DNA of 52,228 nt from Runella sp. (GTDB lineage Bacteria; Bacteroidota; Bacteroidia; Cytophagales; Spirosomataceae), in NCBI RefSeq assembly GCF_027484545.1, contig NZ_JAIXST010000338.1, positions 1 through 52,228 of the forward strand. Direction: 5' to 3'. Shown in pieces: positions 1,905 to 52,065 of the stretch. The position numbers and the translations under genes were made by a program. The notes under the pieces were generated by a model that saw only the letters and a list, made by a program, of their open reading frames with translations, was not told where the DNA came from and searched no databases. Each line of letters opens with the position of its first letter. The stretch's first letter is position 1.

Positions 1905-1936
1905 CCGCAGCGGCACGGTACGCCGCTGCGGGACCG
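1905..1936 (-). repeat. 16-bp GC-rich element (outer copy, split by another copy)
   Basis: Bases 1905-1914 plus 1931-1936 join into CCGCAGCGGCGGACCG once the inner 16 bp are removed. The reverse complement of that 16-mer, CGGTCCGCCGCTGCGG, is identical to the core of the copy at 51703-51718. It lies in the truB-ribF spacer. Confidence 0.8.
1915..1930 (+). repeat. 16-bp GC-rich element (inner, nested copy)
   Basis: ACGGTACGCCGCTGCG, form N5-(N)CGC-N4-GCG. It is inserted inside an oppositely oriented copy; precise removal of these 16 bases regenerates the complete outer element. Confidence 0.82.
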
Positions 1937-1960
1937 TCCCGAAATGGGAATTTTCAACTT

Positions 1961-2656
1961 TTAATTTATTCCTAATTCTTCCCTCTTTCTTTTCACAAAA
2001 TCATCTATTTCATCGGCATCTTTTAACCAAAAATCACCGATTCGAGTTCGGCAGAGTTCTCTCATATAGGCCCCTGATTGTACCAGCATTCCTACATCGC
2101 GCACTAAACTGCGAATGTAGGTACCTTTAGAACAGACGATTCGGAAACTAACTTCGGGAAAATTCGTATCGTCAATTTCAAAAACCGAGACAGTTACCGT
2201 GCGCGGTTTTATCTCCACAGCTTCGCCCCTTCGAGCTTTCTTGTAAAGGCGTTCTCCGCCCATTTTTACGGCAGAATAAATCGGAGGATATTGTTCAATC
2301 GTACCTGTCAATTGCTGAACTGCTGCGTTTAGTAATTCATGTGTGATGTGGTCGACAGGATATTCAGCGTTAAAAGTGGTTTCGAGGTCAACGGAAGGCG
2401 TAGTTTTTCCCAACACTAATTTCCCGGTATATTCTTTTTCGGCCCCTTGATAGGCATCTATTTCTTTGGTTTTCTTGCCCGTACAAAGTATCAGCAAACC
2501 AGTAGCCAAAGGATCCAAAGTTCCTGCGTGTCCGATTTTTTTAATCTTACAGGCCTTTTTTATCTTATTTACGGCGTCGAAAGAGGTCCAGATGAGAGGT
2601 TTATTCAACAAAATTACCTCCCCTTCTTCGGGCGTATTTGAAGTAGTTTCAGTCAT
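1961..2656 (-). CDS. truB: tRNA pseudouridine(55) synthase
   Basis: TruB isomerises U55 in the T-arm of tRNAs. The 231-residue protein has the family signature KIGHAGTLDPLATGLL, with the catalytic aspartate at D48, followed by the EKEYTGKLVLG and YPPIYSAVKMGGERLYKKAR segments typical of the TruB core. It is shorter than E. coli TruB because it lacks most of the C-terminal PUA-like extension, which is common in Bacteroidota. It starts 10 bp after uppP ends on the same strand, so co-transcription is very likely. Confidence 0.97.
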   Translation of the reverse strand: MTETTSNTPEEGEVILLNKPLIWTSFDAVNKIKKACKIKKIGHAGTLDPLATGLLILCTGKKTKEIDAYQGAEKEYTGKLVLGKTTPSVDLETTFNAEYPVDHITHELLNAAVQQLTGTIEQYPPIYSAVKMGGERLYKKARRGEAVEIKPRTVTVSVFEIDDTNFPEVSFRIVCSKGTYIRSLVRDVGMLVQSGAYMRELCRTRIGDFWLKDADEIDDFVKRKREELGIN

Positions 2657-2666
2657 TTATCAAGGT

Positions 2667-3461
2667 TTAAACTACCTGCAATTTATATCCCATCAGCAAT
2701 AACACTAAAATAGCTCCGCCAACGATGATACGGTACCAACCAAAAACACGGAAGCCGTATTTGGTCAGGAAATCAATAAAAAACTTGATAGCCAACATTG
2801 CTACCACAAAGGCAACCACATTTCCAATTGCCAAAATTTTAATCTGTTCGTCCGTCAAAACGAAACCGTCTTTGTACAAATCGTAGGCTTTCTTAGCCGT
2901 TGCTGCAAACATAGTAGGTACGGCCAGAAAAAAAGAAAATTCGGCAGCTGCTTTCCGTGAAAGTCGTTGTGACATACCTCCCACGATGGTTGCTCCCGAA
3001 CGCGATACGCCCGGTACCATGGCAAGGCATTGAAAAAAGCCAATTTTAAAGGCAGTCAGGTAATCTATTTCGTCTGAATCTTCAATGAAGGTTTTGGTAA
3101 ACCATTTATCTACAAACAACAGAATAATCCCTCCCACCAACAGCGAAATAGCTACTCCCAAAGGACTTTCGAGCAGGGCATCAATGGCATCGCTGAACAA
3201 TACTCCAAAAACAGCACTTGGAATAAAGGCCACGACGAGTTTGAAATAAAAGTCTAAGCTGCGAAAAAAGCGTTTGAAATACAGCACTACCACCGACAAA
3301 ATAGCCCCTAACTGAATGGCAACTGTAAAGAATTTAACAAAACGGTCGGAAGCAATTCCCATAAAAGAGGATGCCAAAATCATGTGACCCGTGGAAGAAA
3401 TAGGAAGATACTCCGTAATGCCTTCGATTACGGCAAGAATGAGTGCTTGGAGAAAATTCAT
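2667..3461 (-). CDS. uppP: Undecaprenyl-diphosphate phosphatase
   Basis: UppP/BacA dephosphorylates undecaprenyl pyrophosphate at the membrane, recycling the lipid carrier for peptidoglycan and other surface polymers. The 264-residue polytopic protein has the two signatures of the family: [14 protein letters not shown] near the N-terminus (glutamates E13 and E17, then the SSTGH loop) and [10 protein letters not shown] near residue 150 with the essential arginine. About eight hydrophobic segments are visible. It sits between DUF3098 and truB. Confidence 0.97.
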
Positions 3462-3549
3462 TGAATATAAGTTATGTTATTCAAGCAGTAAGAACTGACC
3501 AGCAAAAGTGCCTGCGAATCCACCCTGCGAATAACAGATAGACAGTTTG

Positions 3550-3765
3550 CTACTTCTCTGTTGAAGCAGGTTTACGAAGGATGGCAAAAAACTCTACAAC
3601 AAAACCCGACATGACGACTAAAGGACCAACGGTCAAGCCTAAAACACCGAAACCAAACTCGGCTGAATCCATACTCATAATGACAAAACCACCTAAAATC
3701 AGCACAATGCCGATAATCATAAAGGTGAAATTACTTTTACTAAAAGGAAGTGCGTTCTTTTTCAT
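3550..3765 (-). CDS. DUF3098 small membrane protein
   Basis: This 71-residue protein has two hydrophobic segments (about 14-31 and 41-61) joined by a short SMDSAEFGFG loop, the pattern of the Bacteroidota DUF3098 family. Function is unknown. Its conserved position directly after ftsX and before uppP suggests a cell-envelope role, but that is inference from context only. Confidence 0.88.
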   Translation of the reverse strand: MKKNALPFSKSNFTFMIIGIVLILGGFVIMSMDSAEFGFGVLGLTVGPLVVMSGFVVEFFAILRKPASTEK

Positions 3766-3820
3766 TTTAAAAATTTTATCTGTTTTTCGTTTTTATTCCC
3801 TGTTTGGTAATCGTTTCCGA

Positions 3821-4702
3821 TTAATATAAATCATCCAAAGCCATTCGCAAATACCTCGCCAAAGCCTGAAATGTACTGGCAATTCCAATTAAAGCCCCCA
3901 AAACAATGACGGCCAATAATAAGAATCCAAGTTTTTCATACTCCTGCAAAATGTGTAATCCTTCGATTTGGCGCAGTGCAATCTGTTGGAGTGCGACAAT
4001 CAGGCCCGCGGCAATGACCCCGCTGATCAAGCCCTGAACGGCTCCGTTTTTAAGAAAAGGCTTTTGAATGAATCCATCCGTAGCTCCTACCAACTGCATA
4101 CTCCGAATCAAGAATCGTTGAGAATACAAAGCCAAACGAATGGTATTGTTCATCAACAACACAATGATTATGAGCATTATAACCGCAAAAGTGGCCAAAA
4201 TAAGGTAAATCTTAGTGAGGTTTTTATTGATTTGGTCGGCTAAGTTTTCCTGATAAACTACCTCAAAAACGCCTTCTATCTTTTCTAACTCCGTTTTGAT
4301 TAGTTTGAGTTTGGTATCTTCAAAAAAGTCTTCCTGCAGTCGTACACGGTAGCTGTCATGAAGGGGATTTTCTCCCAAAAATGCCGTAAAATCTTCTTTC
4401 GTATCCGTAATAAATTCTTTGGCCGCTTCGTCTTTGGAGAAAAACAGTACCTGAGGCTTTCCCTCAATATTTAGTACAAAGGGTTTTACTGCAATCTTTT
4501 TTTGTACATCAGCAACTTGGGTAGAATCTAATTCTTTATCAAGCATCACCCGCACTTCGATGTTTTGCTTGATGATTGAAATCAATTTTTTGGACTGCAT
4601 AACCATCAATCCGCAGAAACCAATTAAAAACAAAGCAGCCGTAAGACTGGCAATAATCATGGCGTTGGGATAGCTACCAACTTTTTTCTTTTTAAGAGGC
4701 AT
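3821..4702 (-). CDS. ftsX: Cell-division ABC transporter permease FtsX
   Basis: FtsX is the membrane partner of the ATPase FtsE and couples division to activation of peptidoglycan hydrolases. The 293-residue protein has the expected layout: a basic N-terminus (PLKKKKVGSYPN), TM1 at about residues 17-37, an extracytoplasmic domain to about 160, then three TM segments in the C-terminal permease half. Segments such as IRSMQLVGATDGFIQKPFLKNG are characteristic. ftsE is not adjacent in this window. It is the first gene of the minus-strand run, with the divergent sensor kinase 176 bp away. Confidence 0.95.
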   Translation of the reverse strand: MPLKKKKVGSYPNAMIIASLTAALFLIGFCGLMVMQSKKLISIIKQNIEVRVMLDKELDSTQVADVQKKIAVKPFVLNIEGKPQVLFFSKDEAAKEFITDTKEDFTAFLGENPLHDSYRVRLQEDFFEDTKLKLIKTELEKIEGVFEVVYQENLADQINKNLTKIYLILATFAVIMLIIIVLLMNNTIRLALYSQRFLIRSMQLVGATDGFIQKPFLKNGAVQGLISGVIAAGLIVALQQIALRQIEGLHILQEYEKLGFLLLAVIVLGALIGIASTFQALARYLRMALDDLY

Positions 4703-4878
4703 AAAGTAAGTATAAAGTGTAGACGGGGTTTAAGTGAGAAAGTCAATTACCTTCATTTATAAACTCGACCATGAACCGTTGCAAAAATAGGTAATTATTT
4801 CAAGAACGAATTCAAATAGTGGATTCGTGAATAGTTTTTAAAGTTTTTTAACCAAATTGCCTACTTTACGAGTGCAAA

Positions 4879-7851
4879 ATGTTACCGACAAGAACCTTTA
4901 CCCTTCTGATTTTTTTGTTGTGGTGGTGCGTTGCGGCAGCGCAATTGCCCAATGACCTCATCTTCCAACGGTACTCTACCCGCGACGGACTTTCTGACAA
5001 TTACATTTTTAACGTGGTGGAAGACCGCCAGCATTTTATTTGGGCAGCTACGTTTCAGGGAGTTGATCGCTTAGACGGGGTCGATGTACGACACTATAGT
5101 TTAACAGACAGTACAAAAACCGATGCCCAGCCTTCCTCCGAAGTATTTATAGATGACAGAGGCGAAATTTGGGCTACCCGTAACGCCAATCTATTTAAAT
5201 ATGATCCCATCCAAGACCGATTTTTATTAAAATCAAATATGAAAAGTAACGAATTCAACGGTCTTAATAAAAAGGTAAAACAAAAATTTACGTTGCTAAA
5301 TGACATCCCTAACCGATGTTTTTGGATAGCCCGCGAAACCGGGCTCTACCGGTACGATTTGAATACTGAACATTTGGATACCACCGCCATCCGTTCATTC
5401 AGTACACCCTTTAAAATAATCAAGGTCAATCCCACTACCCTTATCATTGCGACCAATGAAGAATGGATAAGTTATGATATCTATACCCAGAAATGGTTTC
5501 GAGCGCCTAAACCCTCCACCGAATGGATCATCTACTCTACTAAGCCCAACCAATGGATTTACTGTGATACCGAACGAAGAATATGGGAAGTTAACTTTCG
5601 AAACGGGCAATTTTCACGTCCCCGGCTCACCGAAATCAATCCCGAACGTAAGGTAATCAGAAGCATTACAACTCTGCCCGACCAAACCGGCCCAAAGGTG
5701 TTGTGGTGCGGATTGGTCACGGGCGGATTGGCCCTACTGAACCCTGAAAACAAAAATGCCTACCGGGATTTCAATGCCCGTTGCAACGAAATCAACGGTT
5801 TTCATTACCGTAGAATCTTTCATATTTTTCAGGACAGCAAACACAACATTTGGTTAAGTACCGACCAAGGTCTTTACCGAGCCAACCCTACAAAATTTCG
5901 GATTCATAAAGAACTGTTTCCTTTTTTTAGAAAATACAACATCAGCAGGGTTCGGCAAATTGTTCAACATGCTTCCGAACCACACCTTGAGTGGGTAGCC
6001 AATTCGGAGTTCGGTTTGTTTTTGTACGATAAAGTGCAACAAAAAGTCATTAAATCTTTTGAAATGCCGGGGACAGGAATCACTCAAATCAAATATGATC
6101 GCTATAAAAGGCTTTGGGTATTGTCGATCAAATCATTGTTAATTATTGAGCCTGATTTACGCATACGAACCCTGCCGACAAAGCATTTAAAACCGGAATT
6201 GCTTTGTTGGAAAATTTTGTTTGACCGATTTGACAATGCCTGGATCGGTTCAGAAATCGGATTGTTAAAAGTTGATTTTCCGACTGAAAAAATAACGGCA
6301 TACATATCCGATACTACCAACCCACAATCCATCAGTCACACGTATGTATATGATGTAAAACTGCTGAACAAGCAAAAAATCGCCTTAGTTACTCCAAATG
6401 GATTGGATATTTTTGACGTTGAAGCCCAAAAAGTTGTTGAAAAAATCGGACCACGCCGGAATGTATTCGCTATGGATATTGATTCCGCTGAAACTATATG
6501 GGTGGCGTACAGCGATGAATTTTTAAAAATCAGCAATCATCAGGTTATTAATAGTTGGAAAAGCTATGGGAACAATAAAAAACTGCGGTTCAAGAACGGA
6601 TTGACCGTTGATAAAGCCGGCAAATTATGGATGAGTATCAGCGATGGCCTGCTTAATTTTGACCCTGTTACCGAAAATTTTCAATTATTTACGGAAAATG
6701 ATGGTCTGCTCAGCAATTATTTCTACGGTTTTATGTATGAAAACAACGGGAATCTTTACCTTAATCAGGAAGAAGGAGTCAATTATTTTGACCCTCTCCA
6801 AACTCGAAATACCCCTAAAATGTACGAGCCGATTTTGACAGATTTTGAGCTTTCAGAAAAGAGACAAAACATTGATTTTAGCGCAATAAAGAAACCATTT
6901 AAGGTCAATTACGACCAAAACATCATTACATTCCATTATTCAGTCGTCGAGTTTGAACATCCCGAAAAAATAACATTTCGCTATCAATTGGAAGGTTTTG
7001 ACCAAGTTTGGAAAAACGGCAACACCCACCGTGAAGTCAGCTATACAAATCTCACCGGTGGCTATTACACCTTCAAAGTACAGGCACTCAGTACCGACGG
7101 TGCTATTGCTTCTTACATTGCGGAGTTCCAAATTTTTGTCACTACCCCCTATTACCGAAGTTGGTGGTTTTTTGGGTTGCTTTTTGCGGGTATTACAGCC
7201 TTTTTCTACGGTCTGTATCGCTATCGCCTAAAACACATTCTAGAACTTCATCATTTACGTAATTCAATTTCCCGAGACTTGCACGACGAAGTAGGGTCGA
7301 CCTTGAGCAGTATTACAATGCTCAGTGAATCGGCTCAAAAATCCCTAAACATTGACGAAGCCCAAAGTCGAAAGTTCATGGAAAGCATAACCAAAAATGC
7401 ACAAAAGGTCTTGGAGAGCATGGATGACATTGTTTGGGCTATCAACCCCAAAGACGATACCCTCGAAAGTATCGTTTTGCGCACCAAGGAGTATGCCTAT
7501 ACCATAACCGAAACCAAAGGCATTCAACTTCGTTTTGACATCGGCCCTAACTTCCGAAAGCTCAAAATCCCGATGAAAACCCGACGGAATCTTTATCTAA
7601 TTTTAAAGGAAAGTATCAATAACACCGTCAAACATTCGGGGGGTACGGAATTGAAAATAGAATTAAGAATAGAAAAACGGGCCCTGAATTTGGTAGTTCG
7701 GGACAATGGTCAAGGGTTTGACCCGCTTAAACCTACGATGCGTAATGGTCTGGAAAATATGCGGCAACGTGCAAAAGAATTGAGCGGCACCATCCGAATA
7801 GACAGTCAACAAAACAGAGGAACTGACATTTATATTCACATGATTGGGTGA
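4879..7851 (+). CDS. Two-component sensor histidine kinase with beta-propeller and Y_Y_Y sensor
   Basis: This is a 990-residue one-TM sensor kinase. A signal peptide (about 1-21) is followed by two-component-propeller repeats to about residue 660 (for example DNYIFNVVEDRQHFIWAAT and NIWLSTDQGLYR), which form the periplasmic sensor. A Y_Y_Y domain covers about 690-758 and a TM segment about 762-782. The cytoplasmic part has a NarX-type dimerisation/phosphoacceptor motif SRDLHDEVGSTLSS with H802, then an ATPase domain with N-box (LKESINNTVKHSGG) and G-box (DNGQGFD, NGLENM). Unlike the SusR-type hybrids of Bacteroides it has no receiver or AraC part. Its partner regulator follows 82 bp downstream. 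The ligand is unknown; the downstream exported-protein genes are candidate targets. Confidence 0.94.
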   Translation: MLPTRTFTLLIFLLWWCVAAAQLPNDLIFQRYSTRDGLSDNYIFNVVEDRQHFIWAATFQGVDRLDGVDVRHYSLTDSTKTDAQPSSEVFIDDRGEIWATRNANLFKYDPIQDRFLLKSNMKSNEFNGLNKKVKQKFTLLNDIPNRCFWIARETGLYRYDLNTEHLDTTAIRSFSTPFKIIKVNPTTLIIATNEEWISYDIYTQKWFRAPKPSTEWIIYSTKPNQWIYCDTERRIWEVNFRNGQFSRPRLTEINPERKVIRSITTLPDQTGPKVLWCGLVTGGLALLNPENKNAYRDFNARCNEINGFHYRRIFHIFQDSKHNIWLSTDQGLYRANPTKFRIHKELFPFFRKYNISRVRQIVQHASEPHLEWVANSEFGLFLYDKVQQKVIKSFEMPGTGITQIKYDRYKRLWVLSIKSLLIIEPDLRIRTLPTKHLKPELLCWKILFDRFDNAWIGSEIGLLKVDFPTEKITAYISDTTNPQSISHTYVYDVKLLNKQKIALVTPNGLDIFDVEAQKVVEKIGPRRNVFAMDIDSAETIWVAYSDEFLKISNHQVINSWKSYGNNKKLRFKNGLTVDKAGKLWMSISDGLLNFDPVTENFQLFTENDGLLSNYFYGFMYENNGNLYLNQEEGVNYFDPLQTRNTPKMYEPILTDFELSEKRQNIDFSAIKKPFKVNYDQNIITFHYSVVEFEHPEKITFRYQLEGFDQVWKNGNTHREVSYTNLTGGYYTFKVQALSTDGAIASYIAEFQIFVTTPYYRSWWFFGLLFAGITAFFYGLYRYRLKHILELHHLRNSISRDLHDEVGSTLSSITMLSESAQKSLNIDEAQSRKFMESITKNAQKVLESMDDIVWAINPKDDTLESIVLRTKEYAYTITETKGIQLRFDIGPNFRKLKIPMKTRRNLYLILKESINNTVKHSGGTELKIELRIEKRALNLVVRDNGQGFDPLKPTMRNGLENMRQRAKELSGTIRIDSQQNRGTDIYIHMIG

Positions 7852-7872
7852 GCTTTCTTACTCAATCATGTG
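7837..7872 (+). promoter_or_regulatory. Inverted CAATCATGTG repeats spanning the kinase stop codon
   Basis: CACATGATTG (7837-7846) and CAATCATGTG (7863-7872) form a perfect 10-bp inverted repeat around the kinase TGA. It could be an attenuator hairpin between kinase and regulator, or a two-half-site protein operator. No U-tract follows, so a simple terminator is unlikely. The same motif recurs at 8580 and 8831. Confidence 0.5.
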
Positions 7873-7933
7873 ATATAAAGCAGAAATCAAACCCCTACCT
7901 TTACTTCTTAACTTACAAGCAAACAACCGACAC

Positions 7934-8572
7934 ATGTCTCAGTCGTATAACATCCGCGTAGTAATCGTTGACGACAACGACGATTTTCGCGAAGGTCTAT
8001 TCCATTTCCTGAATTTCAGCACGGGTTTTGAAGTAGTGGGGTGCTTTGCCAATCCAATCGATATCGTTGAAAACATTACACGCACACAGCCCGATGTTAT
8101 TCTGATGGACATAGACATGCCTCGTATTACGGGTATCGAAGCGGTAAAACTCCTGAAGGCCCATTTTAAACGTTTACATATCCTGATGTTGACGGTTTTT
8201 GAAGACGAAGACCGGGTATTTAAAGCCATGCAGGCAGGAGCAATTGGGTATTTGTTAAAAAAAACACCACCACAAAAAGTCCTGGAAGCGATTCAAGAAG
8301 TGATGGACGGAGGGGCTCCCATGTCTCCGTTAATTGCCCGAAAAGTAGTACAGTTCTTTTCCAAAACAGCGCCAGCCGATTATAATCTCACGCCCAAAGA
8401 ACTCGAAGTACTACGTTGGCTGGTGGAAGGACTCAGTTATAAACTGATTGCAGTAGAGCTCAAATTGAGTATTGACACCGTCAGAACGCACCTTAAAAAT
8501 ATTTACGACAAACTCCATGTCAAGTCAAATACCGAAGCCGTAGTCAAAGCCGTTCGTGACCGAATTGTGTAG
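7934..8572 (+). CDS. NarL/FixJ (LuxR-type) response regulator
   Basis: This 212-residue cytoplasmic regulator pairs with the upstream kinase. The receiver domain (about 5-125) has D13-D14, phosphoacceptor D59 (LMDIDMP) and conserved lysine (LLKKTPP). The C-terminal HTH_LuxR domain (about 148-210) carries LTPKELEVLRWLVEGLSYKLIA and SIDTVRTHLKNIYDKL. Pairing a NarX-type HisKA_3-like kinase with a LuxR-type regulator is the expected combination. Repeats of CCAATCATGTGA flank the gene on both sides and may be its own binding sites. Confidence 0.96.
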   Translation: MSQSYNIRVVIVDDNDDFREGLFHFLNFSTGFEVVGCFANPIDIVENITRTQPDVILMDIDMPRITGIEAVKLLKAHFKRLHILMLTVFEDEDRVFKAMQAGAIGYLLKKTPPQKVLEAIQEVMDGGAPMSPLIARKVVQFFSKTAPADYNLTPKELEVLRWLVEGLSYKLIAVELKLSIDTVRTHLKNIYDKLHVKSNTEAVVKAVRDRIV

Positions 8573-9575: not shown

Positions 9576-9739
9576 ACAACTTTTAAGACTACCGCGCAAT
9601 GCTATATCGAAGAGGGAACTGCCATGTCGCTTGGCATTACTTTTAATGTATTGATTATTAAGCAATCCGTTAAACAATTTCGAAACGAAATAGAGTTGTT
9701 CTTGAGGCTTAAAAAGTTCATAATTTTGAAAATCCCCCA

Positions 9740-12464: not shown

Positions 12465-12513
12465 AGTACATTCAGTGGCTTTAGCACAAAAAAACTCTAA
12501 TCATTCCCCTTTA

Positions 12514-12893: not shown

Positions 12894-12923
12894 ACCAATC
12901 AAACAAAATTGACAATTCAATCC

Positions 12924-30926: not shown

Positions 30927-33020
30927 CTATCCGTTGAGGGTATTTAATTGCGTCCAAACATCATTTATGGTATGAACCGGCAAATTACAGGTTTTGTTAA
31001 AACATACGTAAATTGTTGTCAAATCATTCTTCGCAGTGCGTTCCTGCAACAGAGGTAAGTCAGACCTTGTCTGAGTTCCTACCACTATTTTATTAGGGAC
31101 AAAACGGGATTCCAGTTCTTTTCGGAGGGCATCAGCTTCTTTGCCCACGATGGCAATCTCAGCGGTCGGCTGCGTACGCAACGCGTACAAAGCCGCCCAA
31201 TTGGTCACCCATTGCACATCAGTCAAAAGCGCACGTTTCATCTTCAAAAGCATCCAATCGGCCAGTTTTACGTAGTCTCCATGGTCAAAAATAGTGCCCA
31301 GCCAATACAGATTTTGCGCCATAAGTGAGTTGGAAGCAGGAATCACATTATCAAACACCTCTTTTTTTCGAGCAATCAAGTCTTCGGCATTACTATCTGT
31401 AAAGTAAAACAGTTCATCTTCAGCATCGTAAAAATTTTCCACCACGTAGGCGGTCAATTTTAAGGCTTCGTCCAGCCATTCTTCTTGAAAAGTAGCTTGA
31501 TACAACCCAATGTAGGCATCCACTACGGTCGCATAGTCTTCCAAAAAGCCCACAATCGTTGCTTTGCCGTTTTTATAATTGTGCCAAAGCTGTTGGTTAG
31601 ACGTCATTTTCTCTTTCAGAAAACGGGCATTATTCAACGCCAGCGTTTTGAATTTTTCTTCTCCAAAAGCACGGTAAGCGTCCGTTAAGCCTTTCAGCAT
31701 CAATCCATTCCATGAAGCCAGTATTTTATCATCCAATCCCGGACGTATTCTGCTTTCGCGGGCGATGAAGAGTTTTTGGAGGGCATTTTTATATTGAATC
31801 CCTCCCCAACCCTCCGTGCGACGGTCCGACCCTATAAGGGAGGGGGACAAAGTAACTCCCTTCCCCTCAGAGGGTGAAGGGTTGGACGGTATGCCGCGCG
31901 GGAAGAGGGTTACCAAATGCAAATGATTATACCCATGCTCCCAGTTTCCGGAGGCTCTGATATTATATAATTTAGAAAACCACTCAAAATCGTCCCCCAA
32001 TATTAACTTCAATTCTGACTGTGTCCAAATATAGAATTTCCCTTCTACGCCCTCACTGTCAGCGTCTAAAGCAGAATAAAAGCCTCCTTCGGCACTTGCC
32101 ATTTCGCGTTCGAGCCAATCAATCGTTTCGTATACGCGGCTTTTGTAGAGTTCGTTTTTTGTCAGGGTGTAAGCTTCCGAATAAATACTCAACAATTGCC
32201 CGTTGTCGTACAGCATTTTCTCAAAGTGAGGAATAAACCACTCGTCATCTACCGAATAGCGCGCCCAACCACCCCCTACGTGGTCGTAAATTCCGCCTAA
32301 TGCAATCCGATTTAAGCTTAGTTCGATATGGCGTAACGCTTCGGGGTTTTGAGTAAGGGCATAATAGCGCAGTAAAAACTTATAAATCGAAGGCATCGGA
32401 AACTTGGGGGCTCGGTCCATCCCTCCTTTTTCCGTATCGAAATGTTGTTTCATTTTTTCAAACATTTCGTGCAAATCATCTATCGAAGGAACGGCTTCTC
32501 CTCTCTCCTGTCCCGGATACAAATCGTATTTTTCGGATTCTTTGATGAGCATATTGCTCGTAAATCCTTCCGCTGATTTTACAAGATCATCGTGATGATT
32601 TTCAAACGCATTTTTGACACTACGCAACAGTTGAACCCAATTTTGAGCCGGCAAATAGGTGACCCCATAAAAAGGCTTGGCATCGGGCATCAAAAAAACA
32701 TTCAGCGGCCAACCGCCGCGCGTACCCATTGCCTGCAAAGAGTCCATATAAATTGCATCCACGTCGGGACGCTCTTCTCTATCCACTTTGATGCACACAA
32801 AATCGGCATTCATCACCTCCGCAACTTGCTCTTTTTCAAAGCTTTCACGCTCCATGACGTGGCACCAATGGCACGCCGAATAGCCGATACTGACCAAAAT
32901 AGGCTTGTTTTCGGTACGGGCTTTGGTCAAAGCCTCTTCCCCCCACGGATACCAATCCACGGGATTATGAGCGTGTTGCTGTAAGTAAGGTGATGTTTCG
33001 TGTATGAGGCGATTGGGCAT
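30927..33020 (-). CDS. Thioredoxin-like DUF255 protein (YyaL / SPATA20 family) with inserted palindrome
   Basis: This 697-residue cytoplasmic protein has an N-terminal DUF255 thioredoxin-like domain ([29 protein letters not shown] with C50/C53) followed by a large alpha/alpha-barrel, N-acylglucosamine-epimerase-like part ([29 protein letters not shown]). ATG 33020 is chosen over TTG 33029. Residues about 371-408 ([14 protein letters not shown] and [10 protein letters not shown]) are encoded by a GC-rich palindromic repeat and are not part of the usual domain. It replaces or enlarges a surface loop while keeping the frame. Biochemical role of the family is poorly defined. Confidence 0.94.
31814..31829 (-). 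repeat. 16-bp GC-rich element
   Basis: CCGTGCGACGGTCCGA on the plus strand. Removing it rebuilds the perfect inverted repeat CCCTCCCT-ATA-AGGGAGGG. On the minus strand it has a CCGT-CGC-ACGG mini-stem, a compensated variant of the usual CCGC/GCGG stem. Exact phase is ambiguous by up to 2 bases. Confidence 0.7.
31886..31901 (+). repeat. Probable 16-bp GC-rich element (divergent)
   Basis: ACGGTATGCCGCGCGG begins ACGGT and has the family's composition, but lacks the N4 loop. Removal gives GGGTTGGGAAGAGGG, in keeping with the surrounding repeat. The weakest of the thirteen copies. Confidence 0.5.
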
Positions 33021-34575: not shown

Positions 34576-34591
34576 CGGGGCCGCCTGTGCG
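34576..34591 (+). repeat. 16-bp GC-rich element
   Basis: CGGGGCCGCCTGTGCG followed by G, form N5-CCGC-N4-GCG(G). It differs by one base from the copies at 51334 and 51629 (read on the minus strand). It lies in the AT-rich spacer between the GNAT gene and the sugar dehydrogenase gene. Confidence 0.8.
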
Positions 34592-42341: not shown

Positions 42342-42369
42342 ATAGCTTATTGCCGTTTTAAAGTTTAGG

Positions 42370-42385
42370 CGGGGCCGCCCCTGCG
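42370..42385 (+). repeat. 16-bp GC-rich element inside a tandem repeat
   Basis: CGGGG-CCGC-CCCT-GCG. The bases on its two sides (AAGTTTAGG and GTTTACTGTTTAAAA) join into a sequence that recurs just downstream, uninterrupted, as AAGTTTAGGGTTTACCG and so on. The insertion is therefore exactly 16 bp. Confidence 0.88.
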
Positions 42386-42404
42386 GTTTACTGTTTAAAA
42401 GTTT

Positions 42405-42479: not shown

Positions 42480-42490
42480 ACTTATTTTAT

Positions 42491-45400: not shown

Positions 45401-46261
45401 ACGGCTTACTCCATCCAAAAAATTCTTCAACATCGTATGCCGATAAATATACCAATCTGACCATCTTTTGTTTTCGGGGTGAGGGTAATCGGTAGTGACA
45501 GGCTGAATATCCTTTATTTTACTGTAGTCTGATTTCCACGTATCATTAATAGTTTTGAGATTACCATAACGTGTTTGAAGCCAATCTCTAAAGCCCGTTA
45601 ACATGGAAGGAGCAATATCATAAAGTGATACATAAGAATTTCCAAAACCCAAGCCTCCGTCTGGTTCGTAACCTTCATAGTGATAGCCGGCTTCCTGTGT
45701 TGTTGTTGTTGTTGCCGCCAAACATAAGATACGACCTTCCTGCTGATAGGGCTGATAGCGCTCACAAACCTCTTTTACAAAACCCAGCGCTTTGTCGACC
45801 GCAGGCTGATAGGACATACTGAAAATATCCTTTAAAGTACGCCCCTGCTGATCTTTTGCCGCTTCGCTTTCGGGCCAAAACCCTTCCGAACGATTACAAC
45901 AGCGGGCCAAATGAATCCGAAGAAAGATTTTAAGTCCTAACTCTTTACAGAGTTGAATTTGATTGTCAAATTGTTGCCAATTGGCTGAAGTGCTTGTCTT
46001 TTCATGCACAACATCCCATCTGACAGTTATCATGGCAGCATTACAACCCTGTTTAGCCGCTTCACGAATCACACCCAGGCCTTGCTCTGCCCCCTCGGTA
46101 GTATTGAGCAATGCCACACATAAATAACGTTGATTATCTTCGGCTAAAACAACAGTATGAGTTGAGGCAACAATGGGTAAATCAGGACTGTTTTTCGCAT
46201 AGGTTTTGACAGTAGCAACCCATGCAAGCACACACAAAATTCTTGCTACACGTTTAATCAT
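42491..46261 (-). CDS. Type-IX-secreted glycosidase-like protein with cadherin-like repeats
   Basis: This 1256-residue protein starts at ATG 46261 (MIKRVARILCVLAWVATVKTYA signal); an ATG at 46297 adds 12 residues and is less signal-like. The N-terminal domain, about 25-440, resembles glycoside hydrolase family 42 barrels (GLKIFLRIHLARC, GFRDWLQTRYGNL, INDTWKSDYSKI). Five cadherin/Ig-like repeats begin with NQPP, NQAP, NQSP, NLPP and NVPP near 472, 679, 768, 860 and 953. Two related modules (LSLYKAG near 564, FSLFKAG near 1049) contain GDDGG/DDNGG. The end (YPNPFATTLKIAIPNE and KGMYLLQVQ) is a type A T9SS sorting domain. Catalytic residues are not assigned. Confidence 0.88.
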   Translation of the reverse strand: MIKRVARILCVLAWVATVKTYAKNSPDLPIVASTHTVVLAEDNQRYLCVALLNTTEGAEQGLGVIREAAKQGCNAAMITVRWDVVHEKTSTSANWQQFDNQIQLCKELGLKIFLRIHLARCCNRSEGFWPESEAAKDQQGRTLKDIFSMSYQPAVDKALGFVKEVCERYQPYQQEGRILCLAATTTTTQEAGYHYEGYEPDGGLGFGNSYVSLYDIAPSMLTGFRDWLQTRYGNLKTINDTWKSDYSKIKDIQPVTTDYPHPENKRWSDWYIYRHTMLKNFLDGVSRTAKGVNSEYKVVNDFGSVHDGLSFRRGTFAFKDLARTTDGTKINDSQFYNHFFSADVLRGSMGADKWIMNEAFREPGMSQYGMEVMLNQHFEGGCKLVNIVANSTGDIDWFAPSIKSVLNNWLKKPMTPVVTVQKMVVKLSELVRTSGYYLPGYVSRWEEKKASGPVEIKLIEDLLGEPEVNQPPIIKNPLKDYSVTSGIDALYPIPDNTFQDPDGTIEFYEVTGLPVGLFLDKNTIKGNTALIGNYVVTVKATDLYDASTSTTFTLKVVPQKEAGLSLYKAGNFLSRTLIRALKNKDTLNIDALGFAVNFFATPDASAKAVAMKLSGAITQTRTETDAPFALYGDDGGTTLKVGSYELVLESYNSTTITVTNMIGRTVFNFVVVKQRINQAPVVVSQIADQQTTTSSSYNYQVPANTFQDKDGQIARLVFTGLPAGIKANGWQMNGTPTQAGDFTVTVEAFDNENASVKTQFVLKVTAVNQSPVATLVIPDQTIIVQQAYEYNIPVSLFKDVDGYVVRIVAQNTPSGISLLNGKLTGKATVAGDYRILIRAVDNEGAWGETPFRLVVKETLANLPPVVDTAIPNQLGKVGVSFTYTLPTTIFRDPEGSAVRTEVLNLPTGLNINNGVIFGIPTVAGEFKVTVRGYDAVGAFTDTAFLITISLPNNNVPPVVVNPIADQNATVGQPFSLEIPISTFRDRDGSLYGIFVRNLPPGLVFQGGKVTGTPTMVGNYTVTVRAVDNQGASVEDYFVIKVINPSAIATDFAFSLFKAGGSSSRAFVRTVRNNDKIPVSSIPTFINIFVEASPAVNRIEFTMTGPTVANYTDNGSPFGLFDDNGGFSSVPGIYTLKVKGIRNNQSAGESTIQFELVSTNSNRIGEIETTETGVWLPYPNPFATTLKIAIPNEYTPASTTFSVVNLSGQSMVVRDVNWEKQQADLNLEALQLSKGMYLLQVQNPDFPNKVIKILKTE

Positions 46262-46502
46262 TTGGATATATTTTTGAATGAGGAGGTATCTCCACATTCA
46301 AATTAGCAAGAACCGTGCAAAAAAACCAAAAAGTTTTAAAATAGCCTTAAAATAGCCGTTTTGAAATTTTTTGGTTGCCAATCGGAATGTTAATAATGAT
46401 TTAATCGGTAACAGTGTATACTAAAAACGTACTTAAGCACCGAACTTAAAGAAAGAAAATCAAATGGCACAATTTTTGCTACAACGGCAGGCGGAATTCT
46501 TA

Positions 46503-48809
46503 TTACTCTTTTTTTACCGACTTTTTGATTTCCACAACCACTGTTTTAGAAGTAGGAGTCATGCTTCTATCGGCAAAACTGTCAATAGGAACCAAGGTAT
46601 TTGTTTCGGGAAAATAAGTGGCAATACAACGTTCTGGAATTGAATATGGTACTACAATAAATCTCGGTGCTTCCCGCTCAACTCCACCGTAAAAGTTGTA
46701 CAAATCAACCACCGTCCCTGCTTTTAATCCTGCCTTCTCAATGTCTTTTTCATTCATCAATACGACACGTCTTTCGTTATAGATGCCCCGATAACGGTCA
46801 CTGAGACCATAAATCGTGGTATTGAATTGGTCATGGCTTCGTATGGTCATCATCAGGTATTCCTTATCCGACAATTTAAAAGGAACGTAGTGATTCACAC
46901 TAAATCGCGCTTTTCCAATGGAAGTTTTAAAATTTCCATCCCGCGCTCCGTTCGGCAAATAAAATCCTCCAAGAATACGGACGCGTTCGTTGTAACGTTC
47001 AAACCCGGGGATCGTTTTTTCAATCGCTTCGCGAATATGGTCGTAATTGAGAAGTAGCTTATCCCAGTTCACTTTCGATTTTGTGCCCAACGTGGCATTT
47101 GCCAATCGTCTGACAATGTCGGGTTCGCTCAAAAGTTGGTCCGAGACGGGCTGCAGCTTTCCTTTCGATTGATGAACCACCCCCATCGAATTTTCAACAC
47201 TGACAAACTGTACTTTCCCGTTTTGAATATCTTTATCCGTACGTCCCAAACAAGGCAAAATCAAGGCTTCTTGTCCCGTCACCAAATGACTTCGGTTGAG
47301 CTTAGTAGAAACATGTGCCGTCAAACTGCAATTTCGCAGCGCTTTTGCGGTATAAACGGTATCGGGCGTAGCCGACAGAAAATTTCCGCCCATCGCAAAA
47401 AAGACCGTTGCTTTCCCTTCATGCATCGCCTTAATAGCATCTACGGTATTGTAGCCATGTTGGCGGGGCGGTTCAAAACCAAACTGTTTTTTCAGGCTGT
47501 CCAAAAAAGCTTTGGGCGGTTCTTCCCAAATCCCCATCGTACGGTCACCCTGCACATTGCTGTGTCCGCGTACGGGACAAGTTCCTGCGCCCGGCTTTCC
47601 AATGGAGCCTTTGAGTAACAAAAGATTGACGACTTCCCGAATATTGTCTACCGCATTTTTGTGCTGTGTCAACCCCATTGCCCAGCATACAATGATTTTT
47701 TGAGAGGAAATCACCAATTCTGCCGCTTCGTTCATTTCATCAATGGTTAATCCGCAATCTTTTGAAAGCTGTGCAACATCACAGGTTTTTAAATCTTCCA
47801 AAAGTTCTTCAACTCCTTCGGTTTTTTCCCGAATAAATTCCCAATCAAACACTCCTCCCCGTTGCTGTTCCGTATCGTACATCAATTTCAGAATTGCTTT
47901 AAAAAGAGGCACATCCCCGTTGAGGCGTACTTGAAGAAATAAATCAGAAAGTGATGTTTTTCCACCCAACAATCCTAAAGCAGTTTGAGGATTGCTGTAG
48001 GCCACCAAACCTGTCTCATGCAATGGATTGACTGACAAAATCTTAGCACCATTTTTCTTCGCTTTTTCCAAAGCCGTCAGCATTCGAGGGTGATTAGTTC
48101 CCGGATTTTGTCCTGCAATAATTATCAAGTCAGCAATGTATAAATCCTCTAATTTAACCGATCCTTTTCCAATGCCGAGCGTTTCATTGAGTGCTACGCC
48201 ACTCGACTCATGGCACATATTGGAGCAATCGGGAAGATTATTTGTCCCGTATTCCCGAACAAAAAGCTGATACAGAAAAGCCGCTTCATTACTTGTTCGA
48301 CCGGAGGTATAAAATATCGCCTCATTGGGCGAATTTAGTCGATTCAGATGTTGTGCTATTTTTCCAAACGCTTCTTCCCACTCAATTAGCTGATAGTGTG
48401 TTGCCTCTTTGGGCTTATACATGGGCTGGGCAATTCTCCCCTCCTGACTCAACTCATAATCACTCCAAGCACCCAACTGTTTAATGGAATGTTGAGCAAA
48501 AAACTCCGCTGTCAGGCGTTTGGTGGTTGCTTCTTCGGCTACCGCTTTTGCGCCATTTTCGCAGTATTCAGCAATGGCAGAACGCTCATCGTCGGGGTCG
48601 GGCCATGCACAACTGGGGCAGTCAAATCCATCTTTTTGATTGAGATTCAGCAAAGCTTTCATTCCACGCCCCACGTTCATTGCCCCAAACACATGCTTAG
48701 CTGAGCTTATCACTGCGGACAGTCCAACAGCTACTTCTTGAGGAGCTTCGACTTTTAATCCCGTGAAATTTTCGGGAGTCAACTCCGTATCGGCAGTTTC
48801 TTTTTTCAT
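46503..48809 (-). CDS. FdhF/YdeP-family molybdopterin oxidoreductase
   Basis: This 768-residue protein belongs to the YdeP group of formate-dehydrogenase-like enzymes. It has FDCPSCAWPDPDDERS near residue 58, the molybdopterin-binding core (FYTSGRTSNEAAFLYQLFVREYGTNNLPDCSNMCHESSG, in parts), GQNPGTNHPRML, and a C-terminal molydopterin-dinucleotide domain (MMTIRSHDQFNTTIYG). The usual N-terminal 4Fe-4S CxxC-type cluster ligands of FdhF are reduced to CPSC. In E. coli YdeP is linked to acid resistance; the substrate is not known. It is separate from sufB by a terminator. Confidence 0.93.
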   Translation of the reverse strand: MKKETADTELTPENFTGLKVEAPQEVAVGLSAVISSAKHVFGAMNVGRGMKALLNLNQKDGFDCPSCAWPDPDDERSAIAEYCENGAKAVAEEATTKRLTAEFFAQHSIKQLGAWSDYELSQEGRIAQPMYKPKEATHYQLIEWEEAFGKIAQHLNRLNSPNEAIFYTSGRTSNEAAFLYQLFVREYGTNNLPDCSNMCHESSGVALNETLGIGKGSVKLEDLYIADLIIIAGQNPGTNHPRMLTALEKAKKNGAKILSVNPLHETGLVAYSNPQTALGLLGGKTSLSDLFLQVRLNGDVPLFKAILKLMYDTEQQRGGVFDWEFIREKTEGVEELLEDLKTCDVAQLSKDCGLTIDEMNEAAELVISSQKIIVCWAMGLTQHKNAVDNIREVVNLLLLKGSIGKPGAGTCPVRGHSNVQGDRTMGIWEEPPKAFLDSLKKQFGFEPPRQHGYNTVDAIKAMHEGKATVFFAMGGNFLSATPDTVYTAKALRNCSLTAHVSTKLNRSHLVTGQEALILPCLGRTDKDIQNGKVQFVSVENSMGVVHQSKGKLQPVSDQLLSEPDIVRRLANATLGTKSKVNWDKLLLNYDHIREAIEKTIPGFERYNERVRILGGFYLPNGARDGNFKTSIGKARFSVNHYVPFKLSDKEYLMMTIRSHDQFNTTIYGLSDRYRGIYNERRVVLMNEKDIEKAGLKAGTVVDLYNFYGGVEREAPRFIVVPYSIPERCIATYFPETNTLVPIDSFADRSMTPTSKTVVVEIKKSVKKE

Positions 48810-48821
48810 CCTATGTTAAAC

Positions 48822-48865
48822 AAAAAAAAGGTGGTACGACTATTTGCTTAAAAAGTCATACCACC
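48822..48865 (-). terminator. Intrinsic terminator after sufB
   Basis: On the minus strand GGTGGTATGACT (48865-48854) pairs with AGTCGTACCACC (48841-48830), one mismatch and a 12-nt loop, followed by eight T residues. It ends the sufB transcript before the FdhF/YdeP gene. Confidence 0.88.
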
Positions 48866-48893
48866 CTCTGTTATTACTATTTCTAACCTCTTT

Positions 48894-50339
48894 TTACCCT
48901 ACCGACCCTTCCAAGCTTATTTCAAGCAGTTTTTGGGCTTCCACTGCAAACTCCATAGGCAATTGATTCAAGACTTCTTTCACGTAGCCATTCACAATCA
49001 ATGCCACCGCCTGTTCGGTCGGAATACCGCGCTGATTACAATAAAACAATTGATCTTCTCCGATTTTTGACGTCGTAGCTTCGTGTTCTACCGTTGCGCT
49101 TGTGTTGTTTACTTCAATATAAGGAAATGTATGTGCTCCGCAGGTATCACCAATCAATAGCGAATCGCATTGCGAGAAATTACGGGCATTTTCGGCACGT
49201 TTGAATACCTGCACCAATCCACGGTACGAGTTCTGGCTTTTCCCTACGGAAATACCTTTTGATACGATACGACTCTTGGTGTTTTTACCAATGTGAATCA
49301 TTTTCGTACCTGTATCAGCCTGTTGCATATTGTTGGTAACGGCCACCGAATAAAATTCCCCGATGGAGTGATCGCCTTTCAGAATCACCGAAGGATACTT
49401 CCAGGTAATAGCCGAACCGGTTTCTACCTGTGTCCACGAGATTTTTGAATAGGCTCCTTCGCAGATACCACGTTTAGTAACGAAGTTATAAATCCCGCCT
49501 TTTCCGTCTTTATCGCCTGGATACCAGTTTTGAACGGTGCTGTATTTTACTTCGGCGCGTTCGTGGGCTATGATTTCCACTACGGCTGCATGCAATTGAT
49601 TTTCGTCACGCATTGGAGCCGTACACCCTTCCAGATAACTTACGTACGAACCTTCGTCGGCAATAATAAGCGTCCGCTCAAATTGCCCTGTACCGGCTGC
49701 ATTGATACGAAAATAAGTCGAAAGTTCCATTGGGCAACGTACGCCTTTGGGAATATAACAAAACGAGCCGTCGGAAAATACGGCAGCATTGAGTGCTGAA
49801 AAGAAATTGTCTTTGGGAGGAACTACCGAACCGAGGTATTTTTTCACCAATTCCGGGTGTTCCTGAATGGCTTCGCTGATGGCACAAAAAATGATTCCCT
49901 GTTTTTTAAGTTCTGTTTTAAAGGTAGTAGTCACCGAAACTGAGTCAATAACAGCATCTACGGCTACTCCGGATAATCTTTTTTGTTCGTTCAATGAGAT
50001 ACCCAAACGTTCAAAAGTACGGCGCAATTCGGGGTCAATTTCATCCAAAGAACCTACTTCTATTTTCTGTTTAGGAGCAGAATAGTATTTAATGCCTTGG
50101 TAATCAATCGGTGGATAATGAACGTTTGGCCATTTTGGTTCGGTCATCCCCTGCCACATACGGAAAGCCTTCAAACGCCACTCCGTCATCCATTCAGGTT
50201 CATTTTTCTTTGCCGAAATCCACCGGACAGTATCCTCGGTCACACCCGGTGCAGCTTCATCGGCCTCAATGTCGGTTACGAAGCCGTACTTATATTCAGA
50301 GTTGGTAATTTCTTCTAATAATTCTACCTCTTTGCTCAT
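48894..50339 (-). CDS. sufB: Fe-S cluster assembly scaffold protein SufB
   Basis: SufB forms the SufBC2D scaffold that builds iron-sulfur clusters in the cytoplasm. The 481-residue protein is full length and shows the family signature segments [74 protein letters not shown] and the C-terminal [22 protein letters not shown]. sufC, sufD and sufS are not beside it: a terminator follows directly downstream and the upstream gene is on the other strand, so sufB is monocistronic here. Confidence 0.97.
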
Positions 50340-50568
50340 CGCTATGTGTGCGGTTAATTCTATATTTTCAACAAAAATCAGGAACCTTCTGTTCTAATCG
50401 GGGTACAAATATCTTAAAAATATTCTAAATAAGGACAAAGCCGTTTTTGACAGTCTTCAGATTTTTTACCGTTTGATAAGTTTCGTATACAACCATCTTC
50501 AAAAAAACATACTGTTGCTCTGCTTACTTCAACGTTAAAACGTGTGACAACCCTTAAAACCGAAAAAA

Positions 50569-50787
50569 ATGAATACGATATTGGTTGTTGAATCTATTCC
50601 GCTATTGCGCAGTATGTTATGTCAGCTTATTTCCAATATTCCGAACATCAATATCTCCATTGTGACTTTAGAATATGAGGCACTTGCCCCTGCCCTATCC
50701 CTGAAACCGGATTGGGTTTGGTTGGATGGAACCAATCCGCTTATCAAAAGCAGAAACTACCTTAAAAATCTTAAAAAATTAACTTAA
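50569..50787 (+). pseudogene. Truncated receiver-domain protein
   Basis: This 72-residue frame (ILVVESIPLLRSMLCQLISN, then ALSLKPDWVWLDGTN) follows a response-regulator receiver domain from the first strand to the phosphoacceptor region: the pocket acids are altered to E-S, and D55 of WLD aligns with the phosphorylation site. A full receiver needs about 120 residues, so about 50 are missing. The end lies 18 bp before the IS982-type remnant, suggesting truncation by that insertion. It may be non-functional. Confidence 0.55.
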
Positions 50788-50804
50788 CGTGAACTTTTCA
50801 ATAC

Positions 50805-51180
50805 CTACGCAGCCATTGGGGGGCAGTACTGCCTCAATTCCAATGGTGCTGTAATCTTAACTTTGGGTTTTCTTTGGTAAAAAGAATAGGCACAGATAGC
50901 TGCCAATGAATGCGTAAAAGCATTAGTAGCTTTTCGATGCCTTGTGTGTTCAAGCTCCATTACATTTTTTTGAATACCGATTACGGTTTCAATAATGGGT
51001 CTTTTTTTAGCCATCTTTTGGGCTTGTAAAGGAATTTCTTTGACCGATTTTTTCTTTGCATTATTACGTGGTTTGGCAAAGAAATCAATCGTATTGTCAT
51101 ATTCGACAAAGGCTAATTTAGCCTCCGCATCGGCCTTTAGATTTGTGCGATGTAAAAATTCCAAGAAAATCATAACTTGG
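50805..51180 (-). pseudogene. C-terminal remnant of an IS982-type transposase
   Basis: On the minus strand, about 110 residues match the end of IS982-family transposases: DNTIDFFAKPRNNAKKK, MAKKRPIIETVIGIQKNVME, LEHTRHRKATNAFTHSLAAI and AYSFYQRKPKV, ending in TAG at 50805-50807. The N-terminal two thirds are absent; the frame stops making sense near 51150-51190, where IS110-type sequence begins. The copy cannot be active. Confidence 0.75.
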
Positions 51181-51183
51181 AAC

Positions 51184-51415
51184 ACTCTCAAAATGAGAGT
51201 AAGTCAGCACCAACAGGGTTGCCTTACCGCCTTCGGCTGAGCAAGACTCATGGATCGATTTAAGTCCCTGTTGGTTTACTGTAACACAGTACTCAGCGGG
51301 GTGGCCCGAGCCATAGAAATTCGGGTTCAAGACCGCACGGGCGGCCCCGCCATGAGCAAGGTATTGAGTGTGCGACAGCTTGCTGGCTTGAGTAAAAATA
51401 AACTCATTCAAAATT
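51184..51415 (+). ncRNA. Non-coding IS110 left end, candidate bridge-RNA region
   Basis: About 230 bp with no credible gene precede the IS110-type transposase start. It contains several inverted repeats: ACTCTC/GAGAGT (51185-51200), ACCAACAGGG/CCCTGTTGGT (51209-51218 with 51266-51275) and CCCGA/TCGGG (51305-51309 with 51321-51325). IS110-group elements are known to encode a structured bridge RNA in this position, guiding target choice. The assignment is by position and structure only. One 16-bp element has inserted at 51334-51349. Confidence 0.4.
51334..51349 (-). repeat. 16-bp GC-rich element
   Basis: CGCACGGGCGGCCCCG on the plus strand; the minus strand reads CGGGG-CCGC-CCGT-GCG. Identical to the copy at 51629-51644 although the flanks differ. 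It lies in the IS110 leader. Confidence 0.8.
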
Positions 51416-51426
51416 ATGGAAACATT

Positions 51427-51442
51427 GCGGTCCGCCGCCGCG
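51427..51442 (+). repeat. 16-bp GC-rich element in IS110
   Basis: GCGGT-CCGC-CGCC-GCG. Removal gives ATG-GAA-ACA-TTG-TCA-TTT, the expected start of the IS110 frame (METLSFFIGID). Phase may shift by one base. Confidence 0.88.
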
Positions 51443-51628
51443 GTCATTTTTTATTGGTATTGACATTTCAAAAGCTACGCTTGATTTTGCCGTTGTTGTC
51501 GCTAACAAATTGCTGTTTCATTTTCAATCAAGCAATGATAAAAAAGGGATTGAAACATTTATCAAACAATTAAAGACTCAATGCCCTGATGCGAATTTTA
51601 CCAATAGCTTGTACTGCATGGAGCATAC

Positions 51629-51644
51629 CGCACGGGCGGCCCCG
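51629..51644 (-). repeat. 16-bp GC-rich element in IS110
   Basis: CGCACGGGCGGCCCCG on the plus strand. Removal restores CAT-ACA-GGT-ATT-TAC, the conserved MEHTGIY motif of IS110 transposases. The best defined boundary of the five insertions in the gene. Confidence 0.9.
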
Positions 51645-51701
51645 AGGTATTTACAACAATCATCTTTTGAACTTTTTACATTCAAAACAGGCAAAGATTT
51701 G

Positions 51702-51717
51702 ACGGTCCGCCGCTGCG
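51702..51717 (+). repeat. 16-bp GC-rich element in IS110
   Basis: ACGGT-CCGC-CGCT-GCG. Removal restores ATT-TGG-CTT-GAG-CAC, giving IWLEHPIHIK in the expected place. Confidence 0.9.
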
Positions 51718-51816
51718 GCTTGAGCACCCCATTCACATCAAAGACAGCTTGGGTATGGTTCGGGGCAAGAACGATAAAGTTGATGCCCAAAGAATTGCTA
51801 CTTATGCCTACAAAAT

Positions 51817-51832
51817 CGGAGCGCCGACGCGG
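51817..51832 (+). repeat. 16-bp GC-rich element in IS110
   Basis: CGGAGCGCCGACGCGG (phase may be 51816-51831, TCGGA-GCGC-CGAC-GCG). Removal restores AAA-ATC-CGC-GAT-GAG, giving the conserved RDEVRLWVPK segment. Confidence 0.88.
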
Positions 51833-52049
51833 CCGCGATGAGGTGCGTTTATGGGTACCAAAACACGATATCATCCAAAAACTTGATAGACTCACAGCAC
51901 CTCGCAATAGGCTCATCAAAGTTGGGAAAATGATGCAATCCCCCTTGACAGATTGTAAAGATTTTATTTCCAAAAAAGACCTTAGCGAGGCAAAAAAAGC
52001 CTGTCAAAGTACGATGCAAGCGCTTGATAAAGATATTAAAAAGGTCAAT

Positions 52050-52065
52050 CGCAGCGGCGAACCGT
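52050..52065 (-). repeat. 16-bp GC-rich element in IS110
   Basis: CGCAGCGGCGAACCGT on the plus strand; the minus strand reads ACGGT-TCGC-CGCT-GCG then A, so the outer stem pair is T-A instead of C-G. Removal restores GTC-AAT-CAA-GAT, giving KKVNQDIQNTI. Confidence 0.9.

Follow-up and report, generated by a model that had tools for sequence, protein, structure and literature searches.

We describe here a GC-rich unit of 16 bp that has spread through the genome of a Runella sp. (family Spirosomataceae; assembly GCF_027484545.1, 7,122,131 bases in 354 contigs) and through those of many of its relatives. It was found in a stretch of 52,228 nucleotides (contig NZ_JAIXST010000338.1; about 43% GC), hereafter the window. 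The units have inserted cleanly and repeatedly into new places, in both orientations and also into units themselves, without target duplication; their length is fixed, their letters covary as in a fold, and this pairing takes in a base of the target. We infer that the unit moves as a folded single strand with the help of a trans-acting enzyme, and clean insertion of a 16-bp element by such a route is, in our view, the best explanation overall and a rather probable one. An earlier reading of the window, made from its sequence only, had proposed a family of thirteen such insertions. The family is real: CGCNNNGGCGNNCCNN has 99 matches, compared with 4 for the reversed motif that served as control, in 630,980 bases of this genome (the window plus 40 further stretches), a sample that is non-random because most of the stretches were picked for holding matches. 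In what follows, G denotes genomes (G000 being that of the window), g genera and L extracted loci.

The evidence for insertion comes from comparing filled and empty sites. In a first set of 296 sequences (1.65 Mb), aligned all-against-all, there were 45 indels of 16 bp, seven of 15 bp and six of 32 bp, with no more than four of any other length of at least 10 bp; short indels of 1, 2 and 3 bp numbered 51, 16 and 7. A second set of 109 sequences (1.01 Mb), which overlapped the first, gave 53 indels of 16 bp, 10 of 15 bp, five of 14 bp and 61 of 1 bp. Raw counts, in which 1-bp indels (51 and 61) outnumber those of 16 bp, are inflated because shifted gaps count some sites repeatedly. Independent sites were obtained by merging entries with similar flanks across both sets, and the 16-bp class then comprised 30 sites in the first set, 37 in the second and 43 in both together, 42 of which show the register of the unit. 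The next most frequent lengths were 15 bp (seven sites), 4 bp (five) and 10 bp (four), and all others from 5 bp upwards had at most three sites each. Rather than varying in length, strictly anchored filled and empty pairs differed by exactly 16 bp in 39 of 42 cases. The empty sites were taken from genus g5, where insertion sequence (IS) copies with and without a unit differ by a single gap of 16 bp with flush ends, the 46 bases scored around it being up to 98-100% identical; comparing the initial 631 kb of G000 with itself gave only 105 alignments, none with a 16-bp indel. Target bases were not seen to be duplicated at the filled and empty sites, and here too the earlier reading holds. Both nested and tandem units are present, the tandem spacing being exactly 16 bp. 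In G018, a dispersed repeat (containing ...AAGTAGTTGGGCAGAAATAG...; L408-L427, for example at 6283 in L426) carries one, three or five head-to-tail units per copy, and these copies have grown in tandem by exact 16-bp steps.

On one strand, the unit reads NGCR NNGG CNNN CCNN, preceded by any base (N0) and followed by Y. It consists of a 4-nucleotide lead (mostly CGCA or CGCG), one half of a 4-bp stem, a 4-nucleotide loop and the second half of the stem. Numbering the unit 1-16 and the flanking base just upstream 0 (equivalent to -1), bases 5-8 pair with 13-16 and bases 0-2 with 9-11; C3 and G8 are almost invariant and might form an extra pair. G8 belongs to both stems, which therefore have one base in common. 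The hairpin stem had been correctly recognized before, but the second set of pairs (0:11, 1:10 and 2:9) had been overlooked. Sequence preference ends sharply at the borders of the unit, except for AC upstream and Y downstream. Inserts that were found without any motif have additional leads (GG, AG and TG) with matching loops (CC, CT and CA), and the arrangement of 4-nucleotide lead, 4-bp stem and 4-nucleotide loop, allowing either strand and a register free within 4 bases, was present in all 34 distinct 16-bp inserts (shuffled mean 6.2, maximum 12).

The pairings covary. Across 81 independent sites, in a register fixed by letters outside the four tested pairs, Watson-Crick combinations numbered 72 for 0:11 (permuted mean 51.3), 79 for 1:10 (56.2), 74 for 5:16 (37.3) and 78 for 6:15 (32.9), and none of 5000 permutations reached the observed count for any of the four, a result that is no probability because the shared descent of units is ignored. 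The pattern was the same among 111 entries (97, 107, 101 and 108, respectively; 2000 permutations) and holds in 55 distinct unit sequences too. Furthermore, base 12 is the same as base 5 in 93 of the 111 entries. Judged from this covariation, the unit is a pseudoknot-like fold of 17 nucleotides including the flanking base; for three units, DNA fold prediction made the 0-3/8-11 hairpin the more stable of the two. The dominance of 16 bp and the covarying pairs agree with the earlier proposal of a non-coding mobile element of fixed length that involves a structured nucleic acid. These data also bear on the idea that the 16 bp are the scar of a departed larger transposon or IS, to which the clean 16-bp difference and the many sites within IS remnants would be suited. 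A scar should share one or few end sequences, whereas here 55 distinct units keep four covarying pairs; units lie inside one another or follow each other at intervals of exactly 16 bp, the two pairings are asymmetric about the centre, unlike terminal repeats, and no larger element that could be their parent was noticed at the sites inspected, although no systematic search for one was made. We regard a scar as very unlikely.

Since one of these pairs includes the flanking base (base 0), the junction is read by the loop. Among 117 entries in which related copies are counted separately, the combination of bases -1 and 11 was C-G in 80 and T-A in 15; with related copies likewise counted separately, 16 of 24 entries with T12 had G as base -2 and 54 of 65 entries with C12 had A, a hint of a further target reading. 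Units land mostly after A-Y (or G-Y). In the 23 closest filled and empty pairs, base -1 differs in five, compared with a mean of 0.87 and a highest value of 3 for other columns, and in four of these the base present at the filled site pairs with base 11. In our reading, a matching base is chosen in most cases, and in some the unit substitutes its own. Flanking-base and loop pairing of this sort resembles inverted-repeat correction, and template-switching in replication, or such correction, would need no dedicated system, in keeping with our failure to find an enzyme. These processes yield neither one dominant length nor many near-identical dispersed copies, though, and they leave the near-confinement of the units to one family unexplained; we consider them extremely improbable.

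In the mechanism that we favour, movement of a folded strand in trans, the unit would act as a single strand carrying its own recognition. The loop would read a junction made up of target base -1 and the unit's own first bases, and a trans-acting nuclease or strand-transferase, behaving like the HUH enzymes that act on the ends of repetitive extragenic palindromic (REP) elements or of IS200/IS605, would cut where the fold ends and join the unit into the target. The length of the unit would be fixed because the two short helices run right up to its ends, and base -1 would mostly be chosen to match and now and then be exchanged. A stronger version is possible, although we advance it only tentatively: a 17-nucleotide single-stranded pseudoknot may be a complete mobile element, whose fold sets its length, whose loop recognizes the target base (and, weakly, the preceding one), in which two loop letters shift the landing and one target base can be replaced, and which is moved in trans by a Spirosomataceae activity outside the described transposase classes.

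Several observations weigh against these proposals. No enzyme was found: for each of the Y1, RAYT and reverse transcriptase genes there are genomes with units in which none was detected. An element that depends on the lagging-strand template should differ in orientation between replichores; the 99 units of the complete genome G212 show no such bias (17 for the best split into two arms, compared with a mean of 20.7 on shuffling, and 238 of 300 shuffles reaching the observed value), although rearrangements could mask one. The permutations are uncorrected for the shared descent of units. Replacement of base -1 is modest at 0.8 identity (28 of 82 pairs; same-phase columns mean 14.1, maximum 18), the excess being smaller at lower identity because many sites lie at third codon positions, and of 24 base -1 changes in the second set, 17 end paired with base 11 and seven unpaired. 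Fold energy alone is unremarkable. The strand of the fold is ambiguous, since G.T mismatches exceed A.C at 5:16 (28 vs 10) but A.C-type mismatches exceed G.T at 0:11 (21 vs 5), as counted in a loose set of 397 matches with 59 in the control. Finally, of 133 entries in a looser set that have a 16-bp gap, 16 misfit the register, and some verified differences are of 15 or 14 bp (seven and three sites).

The units are abundant in many, but not all, Spirosomataceae genomes. The whole G000 assembly has 207 matches to a first consensus at up to two mismatches (31 reversed), and its commonest 16-mer, at up to one mismatch, occurs 126 times compared with no control match, so the excess is genome-wide. 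Across 222 Spirosomataceae genomes, ACCGCRNNGGCGNNCC has at least one match in 172, many of them close to the control. Counts (control in brackets) reach 125 (0) in G000, 120 (4) in G018, 108 (2) in G166, 99 (1) in G212 and 84 (8) in G243, whereas G242, a congener of G243, has 2 (3), and no match occurs in several genera represented by few genomes. In 390 genomes sampled from the order, other families are near the control with five exceptions: G052 (60 vs 6), G267 (20 vs 1), G289 (21 vs 3) and, more weakly, G348 (6 vs 1) and G440 (5 vs 0), an excess that suggests horizontal transfer or a formerly wider distribution. Exact 16-mer scans of genome and viral contig collections gave matches mostly in apparently GC-rich genomes, and an 18-mer search of viral contigs gave four matches only. 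Within the G000 sample, units are depleted in long open reading frames (ORFs): stop-to-stop ORFs of at least 150 codons cover 86.5% of the sample, but 57 of 98 units fall in the 13.5% beyond them. Copies are mostly outside long ORFs, as had been supposed. A rough strand call placed 29 of the units within long ORFs in the sense of the ORF and 12 antisense to it. Among genes beside units, in a sample partly selected via IS flanks, transposases of IS110 and IS3 type (named by eye) recur most widely, and we read them as targets or carriers of units.

The earlier reading had suggested looking for a mobilizing enzyme found only in carriers. A gene was taken as absent from a genome when that genome was not in the list of matching genomes. 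Among reverse transcriptase and RAYT groups this suggestion yielded no candidate, because carriers share no detectable reverse transcriptase nor any one RAYT group. The Y1_Tnp model matches 50 of 59 relatives, unit-bearing and unit-free alike, and 20 Y1 regions (116,849 bases from G000, G018, G005, G019 and G012) hold three motif matches, compared with one for the control. The sole close association is in G005, where the unit at L442:428 occupies the 3' end of a Y1 gene, at the point at which the Pfam match stops. The RAYT gene at L646:1826-2416 had no Pfam match at 0.01; surveys based on Pfam can undercount RAYTs for this reason, and because the Pfam Y1 model fails on this gene a diverged HUH enzyme could be missed.

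Could a reverse transcriptase copy a short RNA into the targets? The fixed length, the fold-preserving changes and the occasional replacement of base -1 by the unit's own would all fit. RVT_1 (E <=0.001) was found in only 101 of the 222 Spirosomataceae genomes, though, and eleven genomes in which it was undetected (G018, G020, G005, G019, G197, G167, G207, G209, G211, G218 and G226) hold 28 to 120 motif copies each, which makes RNA copying highly improbable. In G187 (4.1 Mb) there are thirteen reverse transcriptase matches, several of them equal-scoring, probably a multiplied intron.

The proposal that the units are REP elements moved by the cell's RAYT (TnpA-REP) deserves closer attention. 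The units are short hairpins with a 5' lead, numerous and mostly intergenic, and RAYTs are common in Spirosomataceae. One group, which we judged to be like subclass 2.6 from motifs given in PMC6006769, is present in 110 of 222 genomes (E 1e-8), with G210, G020 and G167 not among them. A variant unit, GCCA GCGG GCGA CCGT, lies 39 bp upstream of one member, at L555 (G025); apart from this, the 33 loci scanned (about 30 genes) gave a single fold match, at L552 and 965 bp off, and most loci have other repeats common to both flanks. Genes of this group (L433, L444 and L546-L575) often have their own inverted flanking hairpins, for example GTCGGGATTTGCAATCCCGAC. A second RAYT group is found in 89 of 222 genomes (E 1e-10), and G018, G020 and G210 are not among these; each RAYT group is therefore undetected in some unit-rich genomes, such as G210 and G020. 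RAYT genes of G212 and G215 in this group have near units on both sides. The RAYT between two units in G212 was considered as a source and rejected, the units being nested in another repeat of GTAG type, and likewise in G215 the units lie inside the GTAG-type repeats that flank the gene. In all, four of 20 second-group regions have units with the CGC lead, two of them nested in flanking repeats and the others at +92 bp (L662) and about 2 kb away (L659). As side observations, several of the RAYT genes L646-L665 (g5, g9, g3 and g48) are flanked by GTAG repeats (GTAGAGACGC...GCGTCTCTAC), and next to or within the genes of a further RAYT group (L616, L617, L622, L625, L626, L627 and L633) lies a similarly arranged 16-mer, mostly CACA AGGG TCGC CCCT, which by eye would seem to belong to a GTAG repeat. 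The lead of the unit, moreover, is not GTAG. On these grounds together we think movement by a RAYT unlikely.

In relation to known systems, the unit behaves like a REP element yet lacks its defining features. As with REP and REPIN sequences and their RAYTs, it is a short non-coding hairpin with a 5' lead, occurs in many dispersed and mostly intergenic copies, and undergoes stem changes that preserve pairing. According to the excerpts available, REPs are 20-40 nucleotides long (PMC3733652) or 21-65 (PMC6006769), with stems mostly of 6-9 bp within a range of 5-13 (PMC3733652). The unit, in contrast, has 16-17 nucleotides and a 4-bp stem, below the REP sizes of 20-65 nucleotides and 5-13 bp of stem; its lead is NGCR instead of GTAG/GTGG (or CGTC), its second pairing joins the lead and a target base with the loop, and its insertion as a single 16-bp unit is demonstrated by empty sites. 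No cognate RAYT flanked by the unit occurred among the fetched loci, where single units lie near L662 and L555. We do not class it as a REP because it differs in tetranucleotide, cognate RAYT and size. CGTC-tagged REPs and Rickettsia palindromic elements are likewise short palindromic repeats, and have no known dedicated transposase as far as the excerpted text of PMC3733652 goes, but size, tag and fold distinguish them from the unit.

Similarities to mobile elements proper are also partial. The IS200/IS605 family inserts without target duplication. IS608, a member, resembles the unit in this respect and in that a short internal sequence reads the junction by base pairing. The unit differs in having no gene and no two ends, in carrying its reading sequence in a loop, in a target of about two bases (roughly A-Y) compared with a fixed tetra- or pentanucleotide 5' of the insertion, in its lack of replichore bias in one complete genome (G212), and in having no Y1 transposase in or beside it, as the 20 Y1 regions indicate. 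It differs from retro-elements in that, by the RVT_1 model only, reverse transcriptase is undetected in some carriers. Yeast mitochondrial GC clusters and other organelle hairpin elements are GC-rich, mobile in AT-rich DNA, and longer. The clusters, which had been put forward as the nearest parallel, are alike as GC-rich mobile hairpins but organellar, and, being likened here by general description, serve as an analogy and nothing further. Rfam returned nothing at gathering score in the window, L411 or L578, and a search of the open-licence literature gave nothing on 16-bp units in Spirosomataceae among the matches listed.

How short bacterial hairpin repeats spread is described as an open question in the available part of PMC8266576. 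For the present unit, the mechanism of dispersal is directly testable because empty sites are visible, every base can be tested and variants predict the landing base. The unit would rank among the smallest mobile DNA elements described. If 17 nucleotides carry their own target reading, this would bring down the minimum size of mobile DNA and offer a very small insertion tag, and if they form a complete element, it would be the smallest self-guided one known. The units also account for GC-rich 16-bp frameshifts in the genomes that carry them, which annotation might mistake for errors.

In the window, a first consensus at up to three mismatches gave 11 matches (shuffle mean 2.32) and a second gave six (1.65), which, with the genome counts above, rules out chance; pair rules without fixed letters were unspecific, with 15 matches compared with 17 in the control. 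Every place that had been listed was inspected on both strands. Ten of the thirteen copies belong to the family, nine by script and one, split, at 1905, but those at 31814, 31886 and 38035 misfit and are degenerate or unrelated. The split copy, which was read by eye and whose whole unit was not script-scored, is an outer unit (CGCA GCGG C / GGA CCGT) on the + strand whose left part (1906-1914) and right part (1931-1937) enclose an inner unit on the - strand, CGCA GCGG CGTA CCGT (1915-1930; six of seven pairs including one G.T, 0:11 being unpaired). Two other units on the - strand, each with six of seven pairs, are CGCA CAGG CGGC CCCG (34576-34591) and CGCA GGGG CGGC CCCG (42370-42385).

Seven further units break up a remnant of an IS110-type transposase gene (51154-52117, + strand), as aligned with its homologue L411 from G018, another genus, in two pieces of 77.1% and 71.6% identity. 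The PF01548 (DEDD_Tnp_IS110) match to this remnant (E 2e-4, 21.6 bits) is below the curated cut-off of 29. Six units are present in the window copy only, one in the G018 copy only and one in both. The first, GGCT CGGG CCAC CCCG (51297-51312, -; seven of seven pairs), had been overlooked; it corresponds to a 16-bp gap in L411, as do CGCA CGGG CGGC CCCG, the commonest type (51334-51349, +; seven of seven), and CGCG GCGG CGGA CCGC (51427-51442, -; seven of seven). A second CGCA CGGG CGGC CCCG (51629-51644, +) aligns with a unit at the same place in L411. CGCA GCGG CGGA CCGT (51702-51717, -) has a net 16-bp gap that aligned a few bases off, and CGCG TCGG CGCT CCGA (-; six of seven pairs; 16-bp gap), previously placed at 51817, is real but spans 51816-51831, one base from the register given. 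The last unit, CGCA GCGG CGAA CCGT (52050-52065, +; 16-bp gap), has target base T and loop base A. The remnant is adjoined by a DDE-domain transposase fragment (PF13612; 50805-51191), and IS pieces accumulate at this contig end of the window.

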